This document shows positions 20,290 to 33,696 of a DNA stretch of 64,000 nt, one piece after another. Both the position numbers and the translations under genes were made by a program. The notes beneath the pieces were generated by a model, which saw nothing but the letters and a program-made list of their open reading frames with translations, was not told where the DNA came from and searched no databases. Source of the stretch: Sphingomonas sp. PAMC 26621 (lineage in GTDB: Bacteria > Pseudomonadota > Alphaproteobacteria > Sphingomonadales > Sphingomonadaceae); contig NZ_AIDW01000019.1 in NCBI RefSeq assembly GCF_000251145.1, positions 62,001-126,000 of the forward strand. The letters are read 5' to 3'. Within the stretch, counting starts at the first letter, position 1. Each line of letters begins with the position of its first letter.

Positions 20290-20414
20290 GGGAGTAGCGC
20301 GGAGTTCTCGACTTCGCTCGAACCGAACAGGGGGTGGGGGGTGCCCCGCCCCCCCGCCACTTCCCAACCAAACCGCGCTACTCCCAACCGTTCGTTTCGA
20401 GCGAAGTCGAGAAA
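20290..20414. repeat. Palindromic element, family B, upstream of GIY-YIG gene
   Basis: Copy 1 at 20305-20328 (TTCTCGACTTCGCTCGAACC) and copy 2 at 20388-20414 (CCGTTCGTTTCGAGCGAAGT, then CGAGAAA) are inverted. A further perfect 13-bp inverted repeat, GGGAGTAGCGCGG (20290-20302) and CCGCGCTACTCCC (20373-20385), encloses the space between. Together they form a 125-base structured block between yqeY and the nuclease gene. Confidence 0.85.
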
Positions 20415-20471
20415 CCCGGCACCCGCCACCCCCGCGCTCGACTCAACCCAGGCGCGGGAGCACACTACAGC

Positions 20472-20882
20472 ATGGCCTTCTGGACCTACATGCTGCGATG
20501 CGCGGACGGTGCCTATTACACCGGGCATACCGACTCGCTCGACCGCCGGATCGGCGAACACCAGACCGGCGGCCATTGCGACTTCACCTCCCGCCGGATG
20601 CCCGTCGAACTCGTCTGGAGCGAATATTTCCCGACCCGCCTCGAGGCCCTCGAAGCCGAGCGGATCGTAAGCGGCTGGTCGCGTGCCAAGAAAGAGGCGT
20701 TGATCGCCGGAAACTGGTCGATGCTCTCCCATTTCGCGCGCCCTCCAAAAGAACGCACACTCCACCCCAAACCGTTCGTTTCGAGCGAAGTCGTAAAACC
20801 TGGGCTGGTGCCGGGTTTCTCGACTTCGCTCGAAACGAACGGGGGTGTAGGGGGGCCTCCCCCGAAGGCCCCTATCGCATGA
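20472..20882 (+). CDS. GIY-YIG nuclease family protein with repeat-encoded tail
   Basis: 136 residues. The GIY-YIG core is about 2-85: WTYMLRC (GIY strand), YYTGHTDSLDRRIGEH (YIG and catalytic Arg region), and EAERIVSGWSRAKKEALI containing the metal-binding Glu. This is the small YhbQ-like type with no DNA-binding extension; related single-domain proteins are poorly characterised. From about residue 101 the sequence (PFVSSEVVKPG and STSLETNGG) is encoded by the palindromic repeat that follows, not by the nuclease family. The stop overlaps the dnaG start (ATGA). Repeat blocks on both sides and the broken yqeY-dnaG order suggest the gene arrived with the repeats. Confidence 0.85.
   Translation: MAFWTYMLRCADGAYYTGHTDSLDRRIGEHQTGGHCDFTSRRMPVELVWSEYFPTRLEALEAERIVSGWSRAKKEALIAGNWSMLSHFARPPKERTLHPKPFVSSEVVKPGLVPGFSTSLETNGGVGGPPPKAPIA
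20772..20842. repeat. Palindromic element, family B, 3' end of GIY-YIG gene
   Basis: Copy 3 at 20772-20793 (CCGTTCGTTTCGAGCGAAGT) and copy 4 at 20816-20842 (TTTCTCGACTTCGCTCGAAA) are inverted with a 22-base spacer. Both lie inside the reading frame of the nuclease gene. With the upstream block this makes four copies around one gene. Confidence 0.88.
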
Positions 20883-31280: not shown

Positions 31281-31394
31281 TTTGCTTCCCCGGCGACGGC
31301 TGGGGCCCAGTAGCGAAGGTGATCGTTACCGCGCGCTGCGTCTTGCGTTCAACCGTCCCTCGACTGTGCCCCGGCCTTCGCTGGGGAAGCAAAG
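31281..31394. repeat. Palindromic element, family C (intergenic pair)
   Basis: The left arm at 31281-31310 (TTTGCTTCCCCGGCGACGGC, then TGGGGCCCAG) and right arm at 31366-31394 (GTGCCCCGGCCTTCGCTGGG, then GAAGCAAAG) are inverted. It lies between the DUF1343 and DOMON-like genes, both on the minus strand. Confidence 0.85.
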
Positions 31395-31398
31395 CAGG

Positions 31399-31914
31399 TC
31401 AAGGGTGCGGCGGCACCGGCAGGGTCGCGATAAACGTCGCGCGGTTGTGGAAATCGGGCGGCCCGGGCGCATGGGCGAGTGCCCAATAGGATTTGGTGCC
31501 GTCGGTTTCCTCGATGACGGCGGTGAGGCTCATCTGAAGCGGGCCCGGCGGCAGGTCGGACAGGTTTTGGCGAACCACGGCGAGATAGGCGGACTCGTGA
31601 TCAACATGTGGCTCTACCGACAACGGAAGATCGCAACCGCCCGCCCGATAGGAGTCGAACCGATAGGCCGCCCATTGCGTCGACGGCGAATAGTTGAACT
31701 CGAAATAGACGTCCGATCCGGGAGGCGCGAGGAAGAGCTCGCAGCAGGTGGTCTTCCAGAGGCCGTCGGTGCGCGAGGGAACAGCCCGGTCGGGAAGCGC
31801 GACGTGCTCCAGACCCTCGACGGTGAAGGTCAGGAGCAGTTCGTCGCCGTCCCGAAGCACCTCCGCGCTGACCGATCGCACCGCACTGGGCGGCCTGTCA
31901 GGATGCGCGACCAA
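31399..31914 (-). CDS. DOMON-like domain-containing protein
   Basis: 171 residues with a TTG start. The beta-sandwich-like sequence runs GDELLLTFTVEGLEHVALPD, DGLWKTTCCELFLAPPGSDV, YFEFNYSPSTQWAAYRFDSY, which match the DOMON-like family; some DOMON domains bind haem or sugars. No signal peptide. TTG at 31914 is chosen because GGAAGGAA, supplied by the adjacent palindromic repeat, is about 7 bases upstream and the overlap with the GIY-YIG gene disappears. An ATG at 31965 is possible but its first 14 residues are encoded by the repeat and it lacks a ribosome binding site. Confidence 0.75.
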   Translation of the reverse strand: MVAHPDRPPSAVRSVSAEVLRDGDELLLTFTVEGLEHVALPDRAVPSRTDGLWKTTCCELFLAPPGSDVYFEFNYSPSTQWAAYRFDSYRAGGCDLPLSVEPHVDHESAYLAVVRQNLSDLPPGPLQMSLTAVIEETDGTKSYWALAHAPGPPDFHNRATFIATLPVPPHP

Positions 31915-31915
31915 C

Positions 31916-32269
31916 CTATATTCCTTCCCCGGCGAAGGCCGGAGCCCAGTAGCGGTGTCCGTCATGGCTGTGCGATCCGATCGTACGACGTTCCCACTCC
32001 CGGTTGAGACCTTCGATTTCGCGGACTTTCCACGTCCGATGCCAAGATTTCATTTGAAACTCCCGAACACGCGCTGATTCAAACGAGCTCTGCGCCTCGT
32101 ACCACACCAGTAATTTGCAGCCGTTGGTCTTAGTGAAGCCTCCAACTACGCTTTCACAGTGCTCCCAAACGCGCCGTACCAGATCATTGGTTGATCCGAG
32201 GTAGAGCGTGCCGTTTCGTCGGCTCGCCATCATGTCGATACAAGCCTGCTCGTCCATAACGACCGCCAT
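31916..32269 (-). CDS. GIY-YIG nuclease family protein, bounded by palindromic repeats
   Basis: 117 residues. [18 protein letters not shown] holds the YIG and catalytic Arg, followed by [14 protein letters not shown] and a C-terminal [19 protein letters not shown] that closely resemble the standard sphingomonad UPF0213-like GIY-YIG proteins. The GIY strand is degenerate: relatives read YVYMMAS, this protein reads CIDMMAS, so the first catalytic tyrosine is missing and activity is doubtful. The last residues ([13 protein letters not shown]) are encoded by repeat family C. A copy of the same repeat lies in inverted orientation just upstream of the start. ATG 32269 or 32257 is the likely start. 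Confidence 0.75.
31921..31948. repeat. Palindromic element, family C, 3' flank of the second GIY-YIG gene
   Basis: TTCCTTCCCCGGCGAAGGCC followed by GGAGCCCA. It encodes the C-terminal end of the nuclease and supplies the ribosome binding site for the DOMON-like gene. Confidence 0.85.
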
Positions 32270-32273
32270 CGCT

Positions 32274-32306
32274 CTTGGGCCCCGGCCTTCGCCGGGGAAG
32301 GAAGAA
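32274..32306. repeat. Palindromic element, family C, 5' flank of the second GIY-YIG gene
   Basis: CTTGGGCCCCGGCCTTCGCC followed by GGGGAAGGAAGAA is the inverted counterpart of the copy at 31921-31948. The two copies enclose the nuclease gene like terminal inverted repeats. Confidence 0.85.
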
Positions 32307-32367: not shown

Positions 32368-33696
32368 ATGGCAACAACACTCCCCTCCCCGCCGAAGATC
32401 GGCATGGTCTCGCTCGGCTGTCCCAAGAATCTGGTCGATAGCGAACGGATCCTGACCAAGCTGCGCTCCGATGGCTATGCCATGTCCCCCGATTATGCGG
32501 GTGCCGACGTCGTGCTCGTCAACACCTGCGGTTTCCTCGATTCCGCCAAGGAAGAGTCGCTCGAAGCGATCGGCGAGGCGATCGCGGAGAACGGCCGCGT
32601 CATCGTCACTGGCTGCATGGGCAAGGAAGCGGAGATGATCCGCGCCAAATTCCCCGGCATCCTCGCGGTCACCGGTGCGCATCAATATGAGGAAGTCGTC
32701 GGCGCGGTGCATGAAGCCGCCCCGATGCCGCCGAGCGCGTTCCTCAATCTCGTCCCCGAGAGCGGGCTCAAGCTGACGCCGCGGCACTACAGCTATTTGA
32801 AAATTTCAGAGGGCTGCAACCACCGCTGTGCCTTCTGCATCATCCCAAGCTTGCGCGGCGACCTCGTCAGCCGCCGCCCCGATGCGATCCTGCGCGAGGC
32901 GGAGAAGCTGATCGAGGCGGGCACCCGCGAACTCCTCGTGATCAGCCAGGACACATCGGCCTACGGCGTCGACATCCGTCACCAGCCGCGGATGTGGCAC
33001 GGCGAAGAAGTCCGCGCGCACATGACCGACCTGTCGCGTGAACTCGGAAAGCTGGGCGCGTGGGTCCGGCTCCACTACGTCTACCCCTACCCGCACGTCG
33101 ATCAGGTCATCCCGCTGATGGCCGAGGGGTTGATCCTCCCCTACCTCGACATTCCGTTCCAGCATGCCAGCCGCAACGTCCTCAAGCTGATGAAGCGCCC
33201 GGCGAACGAAACCAAGGTGCTCGAGCGCATCAAGACCTGGCGCACCATCGCGCCCGACATCGCGATCCGCTCGACTTTCGTCGTCGGCTTCCCCGGCGAG
33301 ACCGAGGACGATTTCGCCTATCTGATGGACTGGCTGGAAGAAGCGCAGCTCGACCGCGTCGGCGCGTTCCGCTTTGAGCCGGTCGAGGGCGCCGCTGCCA
33401 ACGACCTGCCCAACCACGTGCCCGAAGAGATCAAGGAAGAGCGCTACGCACGCCTGATGGAACTGACCGCGCGGATTTCGGCAGACAAGCTCCAGGCCAA
33501 GGTCGGCCGCACGCTCGACGTCATCGTCGACGCGGTCGATGACGAGGGCGGCGCGACCGGTCGGTCGAAGGCGGATGCGCCGGAGATCGATGGTGAAGTC
33601 TTCCTCCGCGACGCAGGGCACCTCAGCATCGGCAGTATCGTTCCGGTCGTGATCGAGGATGCCGACGAGCACGATCTTTACGGCGTGCCCGCCTGA
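32368..33696 (+). CDS. rimO: RimO, ribosomal protein S12 methylthiotransferase
   Basis: 442 residues. This radical-SAM enzyme adds a methylthio group to Asp89 of ribosomal protein S12. The N-terminal UPF0004 domain ([42 protein letters not shown]) carries three cysteines for the second cluster. The radical SAM motif is [34 protein letters not shown] and [13 protein letters not shown] follow, and a TRAM domain ends the protein. ATG 32368 was chosen because it gives [20 protein letters not shown]; no clear ribosome binding site was seen. Confidence 0.95.

Follow-up and report, generated by a model that had tools for sequence, protein, structure and literature searches.

The window, by which we mean the whole stretch of 64,000 nucleotides that was analysed, harbours at 31921-32303 a compact unit of about 380 bp, organised as repeat, gene and repeat. 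On one side lies a gene on the plus strand (32371-33696) with Radical_SAM, UPF0004 and TRAM_2 domains, which we take to be rimO; on the other, an uncharacterised ORF of 188 amino acids on the minus strand (31399-31965), whose present start codon is inside the inserted unit. A DOMON-like identity was considered for this ORF and discarded, Pfam finding no domain there. The gene of the unit (31916-32269, minus strand) codes for a relic copy of a GIY-YIG nuclease, matched by PF01541 at 38.7 bits. Its ATG is at 32269, inside the inner edge of the right repeat, and its stop codon at 31916-31918, while an open frame devoid of ATG extends to 32380. The left repeat (31921-31954, plus strand) contains a hairpin at 31927-31944 (CCCCGGC-GAAG-GCCGGAG); the right repeat (32270-32303, minus strand) is its inverted counterpart, with a hairpin at 32280-32297 that, folded as DNA, displays its 7-bp stem and GAAG loop on the minus strand. 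Exact matches to TTCCCCGGCGAAGGCCGG at 31925 (plus) and 32282 (minus), with the PF01541 ORF between them, bear out the inverted copies that a preliminary description had placed at both ends of the second GIY-YIG gene of the window. The inverted match across the gene covers 43 nt at 86% identity (31921-31963 against 32261-32303).

This repeat, hereafter repeat A, folds into a hairpin whose 7-bp stem closes a 4-nt GAAG loop, the stem being followed by CCCA or TCCA. With three mismatches allowed, TTCCCCGGCGAAGGCCGG has four sites in the window against 0.16 expected, a number reached in none of 100 shuffles. The other two sites, at 31286 and 31371, are accounted for by a slightly degenerate inverted dimer of the same repeat (31286-31388, hairpins at 31288-31305 and 31369-31386), which contains no gene and belongs to a type of 100-103 bp. 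In the whole genome (68 contigs, 4.77 Mb) repeat A occurs 118 and 112 times within two mismatches, about 230 copies in all, including 29 pairs forming exact inverted dimers of 100-103 bp; a backwards control returned none. The whole dimer folds strongly (z -10.5) because of its arms; the idea that the spacers are conserved structures was rejected (mean z 0.11, with 0 of 15 below -2). The gene-less dimer of the window has an orthologue in the sister genome G022 (locus L058), with common arms and outer bases, similar flanks and widely different spacers. It is absent from genome G139, where the edges of the difference are ambiguous.

The first GIY-YIG gene of the window, of a different subfamily (D), is found at 20472-20878 on the plus strand (PF01541, 55.9 bits). 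It has an inverted pair of repeat copies upstream (20303-20415, with copies at 20303-20324 and 20394-20415) and another downstream (20778-20836, with copies at 20778-20799 and 20815-20836), so that the window does contain two GIY-YIG genes framed by different repeat families, as had been proposed. In a set made of 30 relatives and locus L001, repeats of the type CCGTTCG...CGAACGG or TTTCGAGCGAAGTCGAGAAA frame the gene at 26 of 31 D loci. A further GIY-YIG gene lies elsewhere in the same genome (contig C63, 70000-72100; loci L003 and L097), with an apparent dimer of yet another repeat upstream, read from translation only (RHPGLVPG...GPRDEPGVTT).

The copy beside rimO looks dead, an ordinary relic, by its sequence, of an interesting system. 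It scores above the PF01541 cut-off but has Asp at the position of the catalytic Tyr of the GIY motif; among 110 loci of the genus this position holds Tyr in 106, Cys in one and a gap in two, the window copy providing the sole Asp. The reading CIDMMAS in place of xVYxMAS was therefore correct, and this change, together with the loss of 1 nt near the end of the gene relative to G022, supports the proposal that the nuclease decayed after insertion. It had also been noticed that the repeat encodes the C terminus of the protein. The ORF does end inside the left repeat, reading into it because of the 1-nt deletion; as the stop codon of the G022 orthologue precedes the repeat, this ending is an accident of decay, and the idea that the repeat is designed to code for the C terminus was rejected. 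The unit is also present beside rimO in G022, G082 and G137: three of the 30 rimO loci fetched carry it (the genome of the window, G022 and G082), and the copy in G137 was identified separately, by coordinates and in locus L090. The gene has two in-frame stops in G082, and Ser in place of Tyr in G137. In the genome of the window and in G022 the unit lies within the first codons of the neighbouring ORF and now provides its start; in G082 the join is slightly upstream of that start. As for a comparison with empty sites on the rimO side, the gap holds another gene in G139 and G031, and is too diverged in G053.

Bracketing was scored as the best ungapped inverted repeat across the gene, within 260 bp on each side (+1 for a match, -2 for a mismatch, threshold 14), with regions 250-510 bp away from the same genes as controls. 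The 30 best loci of the genus all reach at least 15. When 80 loci, hand-picked further down the match list and thus chosen rather than random, are added, 89 of 110 score at least 14, against 0 of 150 controls (maximum 12). Named loci in a second sample are the best 80 of 578 and hence biased towards close relatives; there, 56 of 80 pass the threshold (25 of 41 in Sphingomonadales and 31 of 39 in other groups, which include Nitrospira, Nitrospinae and deltaproteobacterial metagenome-assembled genomes, and Neisseria), against 1 of 70 controls. A sample of 299 Pseudomonadota genomes, from which 30 loci were retrieved, gave 24 of 30 at 14 or more, and 0 of 27 controls. The remaining loci fall below threshold: 21 of the 110 in the genus, 24 among the best 80 of 578, and 6 of the 30 in the phylum. 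No repeat brackets any of six loci of a clade marked by the endings ..DLAIGLGLP or DLGVGLGLP (L158, L165, L166, L169, L170 and L173), which, judging from their sequences, are possibly settled genes. Plasmid-borne relatives are bracketed in six cases out of ten and not in the other four, and a Rhizobium copy has no bracketing. Farther away, GIY-YIG genes of Planktothrix (Cyanobacteriota, L312, score 12) and Spirosoma (Bacteroidota, L313, score 11) are below the cut-off, with hairpin sequences resembling GTCATTCTGAG or TTTGTCATCC nearby; the Planktothrix gene is located between MmeI-type restriction-modification genes and DISARM genes.

The repeat switches with the clade along the nuclease tree: CCCCGGCGAAGGCCGGGG goes with subfamily A, CGTCATTGCGAGCGNAGCGAAGCAATCC with subfamily E, and CGTCATTCCCGCGAAGGCGGGAATCC, CGTCATGCTGAACTCGTTTCAGCATCC and others with further subfamilies. 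The sister subfamily A' has a version of the A repeat with a CCGTCA front, and CCGTCACCCCGGC. Distances between nucleases and between repeats are correlated (Mantel r 0.706, 86 loci, a value reached in 0 of 2000 permutations), a signal that linked co-inheritance alone would partly explain. Where a genome has two or three bracketed genes, as 11 genomes do, the left arm fits best its own right arm at 23 of 23 loci. Copy number follows the same rule. In a survey of 151 genomes of the genus, the median number of A repeats is 72 in the 57 with an A nuclease (assigned manually, about nine without their flank sequence fetched) and 20 in the 94 that lack one (p 1.1e-10, shared ancestry ignored); for E repeats it is 54 in the 11 with an E nuclease (defined by at least 73% identity) and 0 in the remaining 140 (p 7.9e-11, with the same proviso). 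The crossed tests in these 151 genomes are negative: A repeats do not follow the E nuclease (p 0.87), nor E repeats the A nuclease (p 0.89). At the scale of the phylum sample, where presence was set as a match at E 1e-20 or better, at least five CGTC-type repeats occur in 25 of 73 genomes that have the nuclease and in 22 of 226 that lack it (p 3.4e-6, and p 2.8e-8 in a rank test, both ignoring ancestry). There are exceptions. Repeats A abound in G058 (285 copies), G099 (232) and G061 (218) without an A nuclease, repeats E in G105 (211) and G060 (127) without an E nuclease, and six genomes of the phylum sample have 162, 95, 38, 35, 23 and 23 copies and no matching nuclease; G075 has an A nuclease and four A repeats. 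The preliminary description had named the lack of any consistent correspondence of nuclease subtypes with repeat families as an outcome that would count against a nuclease-repeat relationship. The pairing found across genomes is consistent by position, subfamily and copy number, and the association, as well as its specificity, is well supported by these comparisons.

Filled and empty sites are seen in Azospirillum. In A. lipoferum 4B a nuclease gene, coding for WP_014249537.1 and flanked left and right by a CGTC-type dimer, is found between sufB and sufC, in a gap of 617 bp; the gap without the unit measures 91 bp in A. ramasamyi, 87 bp in A. oryzae, 129 bp in Azospirillum sp. B510 and 55 bp in A. 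thermophilum, while the flanking genes of these four relatives are 98-92% identical to those of A. lipoferum. When filled and empty sites are compared, about 29 bp at the left end and 45 bp at the right end do not align. A search for empty sites with target duplication had been suggested: the former exist, and duplication is not evident by eye at the two sites read. Between gltA and lpxB, Sinorhizobium meliloti and strain K101 both carry repeats and give no clear-cut comparison of a filled with an empty site. On pSymB of S. meliloti (L310, around 890-1000), just upstream of the intact gene of the gltA-lpxB site, another nuclease copy is represented by a truncated end, accompanied by a repeat of its own. 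Around rimO, no fresh movement of repeats was seen over 40 kb in ten related genomes, because the repeat sites of this region are mostly shared. At one of them an A dimer is present in 10 of 10 genomes, with identities of 94 and 97% in the arms, 72% in the spacer and, by global alignment, about 50% in the flanks. Another site, intergenic and at about 29.8 kb in the 40-kb stretches (L099-L118), holds an A dimer in G034, G127, G124, G058 and G024, and other repeat families, one of them degenerate, in G071, G018, G070, G099 and G134. To judge from these sequences, one repeat family seems to have replaced another at a constant position, whether through recurrent insertion into a preferred spot or because one repeat was copied over the other.

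The nuclease belongs to PF01541, with the Tyr, Tyr, Arg, Glu and Asn of this family. Among the 110 loci of the genus, the Tyr of the YIG motif, the Arg and the Glu are present in all, the His in 109, the Asn in 108 and the GIY Tyr in 106. The predicted structure (pLDDT 92) has as its nearest Foldseek neighbour 1zg2, of the UPF0213 family (E 8.3e-4), which sequence comparison also retrieves (E 1.4e-5) along with 1ywl; next come UvrC (1yd6, 0.038) and Slx1 (6seh, 0.088), both above the usual cut-off. The DNA cut by UvrC and Slx1 is distorted or branched. A structure-specific nuclease is the best reading of the protein, given that UPF0213, UvrC and Slx1 are its nearest neighbours in fold and that its active site is kept in nearly all loci.

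We favour, with a probability of about 0.7, the view that we have here a decayed representative of a minimal, widespread element whose GIY-YIG nuclease drives its own family of hairpin repeats (REPs). The element would be a one-gene unit, in which a nuclease of about 95 amino acids is bracketed by inverted REPs, with a separate REP family for every nuclease subfamily, dispersed through the genome for the most part as inverted dimers that contain no gene. The nuclease would recognise its own REP as a hairpin or a cruciform and nick it; host repair or replication would then place copies of the dimer, and occasionally of the complete unit, at new sites or on top of other REPs. As part of the same view, the nuclease of the repeat family of the window would probably be broken in this genome, with its repeats persisting. 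Comparison of genomes shows bracketing, the pairing of subfamily and repeat, the link with copy number, conservation of the active site and presence or absence of the whole unit at orthologous sites; that causation would run from nuclease to repeats we infer.

Other accounts would give the nuclease a lesser role. GIY-YIG homing endonucleases exist, and the gene might be a passenger of that kind inserting into REP dimers, which would be only targets, spread by something else. Its place in subfamily A, between single REPs where a dimer has its spacer, fits such a passenger, and an NCBIfam scan of 11 members, which gave no useful name, produced one weak match, to TIGR01453. However, whole dimers rather than the halves of a split one stand on both sides of the gene in subfamily E, at the D gene of the window and in A. 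lipoferum, and repeat copy number follows the cognate nuclease, not that of another subfamily; we hold the passenger to be unlikely. Slightly less likely still, the nuclease might be a housekeeping partner, trimming or policing REP hairpins or cruciforms with no part in their spread. The nearest folds are indeed those of repair nucleases, and repeat sites are long-lived; at one site in ten genomes the arms are 94-97% identical between flanks at about 50%. Against this role, an operon gap (sufB-sufC) that contains a whole unit in A. lipoferum is empty in relatives, whole units occur beside rimO in few genomes, and the number of E repeats ranges between 0 and 349 copies among the species of a single genus.

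That a RAYT or another transposase moves the repeats, with the GIY-YIG genes carried along, is suggested by the GTAG-type REPs, which go with RAYTs according to PMC3733652 (Di Nocera, De Gregorio and Rocco, 2013). With PF01797 as the sole search, however, RAYTs are scarce (16 of 151 genomes, that of the window not among them) and their presence predicts the number of neither A repeats (p 0.56) nor E repeats (p 0.14), and we reject them as movers, the account as a whole being very improbable. Even less credit can be given to chance. Some 230 copies in 4.77 Mb might be thought enough to frame genes often, but control regions reach the score of 14 in 0 of 150, 1 of 70 and 0 of 27 cases.

REPs rank among the commonest bacterial repeats, and one of their two superfamilies had no dedicated enzyme known. 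A candidate enzyme is now named; every subfamily comes with its partner repeat, and ordinary soil bacteria have intact homologues, which opens the question to a simple nuclease assay. If the proposal is true, the many small GIY-YIG proteins that are annotated by fold alone would gain a function. At even odds, we would go as far as seeing in small GIY-YIG nucleases the engine of a second great REP class, parallel to RAYT-REP with an unrelated enzyme; this would explain both CGTC-tagged and CCGTTCG...CGAACGG-type repeats in several phyla, spread by structure-specific nicking and copying, and their overwriting at shared sites.

It remains to set the system beside those already described. In PMC3733652, CGTC-tagged REPs are defined by an unpaired CGTC (or TGTC, CCTC) at one end, a stem of 8-9 bp, a loop of 4-5 nt and a CCA tail; no dedicated transposase had been found for them, and it is suggested that CGTC REPtrons may have disappeared. 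The partner repeats of several subfamilies conform to this description, CCGTCATTCCCGCGAAGGCGGGAATCCA and CCGTCACCCCGGCGAAGGCCGGGGTCCA folding with a CGTC tag, an 8-bp stem, a 4-nt loop and a CCA tail. The E repeat has the tag and the tail, with a hairpin no better than shuffles (z 0.14). Repeat A differs, by its 7-bp stem and by the absence of the tag, the outer bases of its dimers in the genome of the window being variable (gcac, ttgc, accc, ccgc). A. lipoferum, S. meliloti and N. aromaticivorans, which that paper names, have nuclease genes bracketed by CGTC-type repeats, and GIY-YIG nucleases are likely, from these matches, to be the missing partner of CGTC-tagged REPs. 'GIY' is absent from the main text of PMC3733652. 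In a literature search judged by its listings, which did not extend to preprints and most subscription papers, no paper linking GIY-YIG or UPF0213 proteins with REP, REPIN, REPtron, MITE, inverted or dRS3 repeats was found.

The enzyme shares its fold and active site with UPF0213-like GIY-YIG proteins, presumably those labelled COG2827, with the N-terminal domain of UvrC and with Slx1; to our knowledge none of these has been described with a repeat family of its own. As with MITEs and their autonomous elements, a gene-bearing unit coexists with many shorter gene-less copies having the same ends. By contrast with MITEs, these ends are hairpins, there is no DDE transposase and, at the two sites read, target duplication is not evident by eye, so that of the traits of insertion sequences the inverted ends are those observed. 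There is also a likeness with RAYTs, REPtrons and REPINs: short hairpin repeats, arranged as inverted dimers, flank a dedicated small nuclease gene, persist for long and are amplified in a species-specific manner. The difference lies in the enzyme, a GIY-YIG protein (PF01541) rather than a HUH Y1 transposase. If this nuclease nicks its own REP and copying follows, the system would be the counterpart of RAYT-REP, built on an unrelated enzyme.
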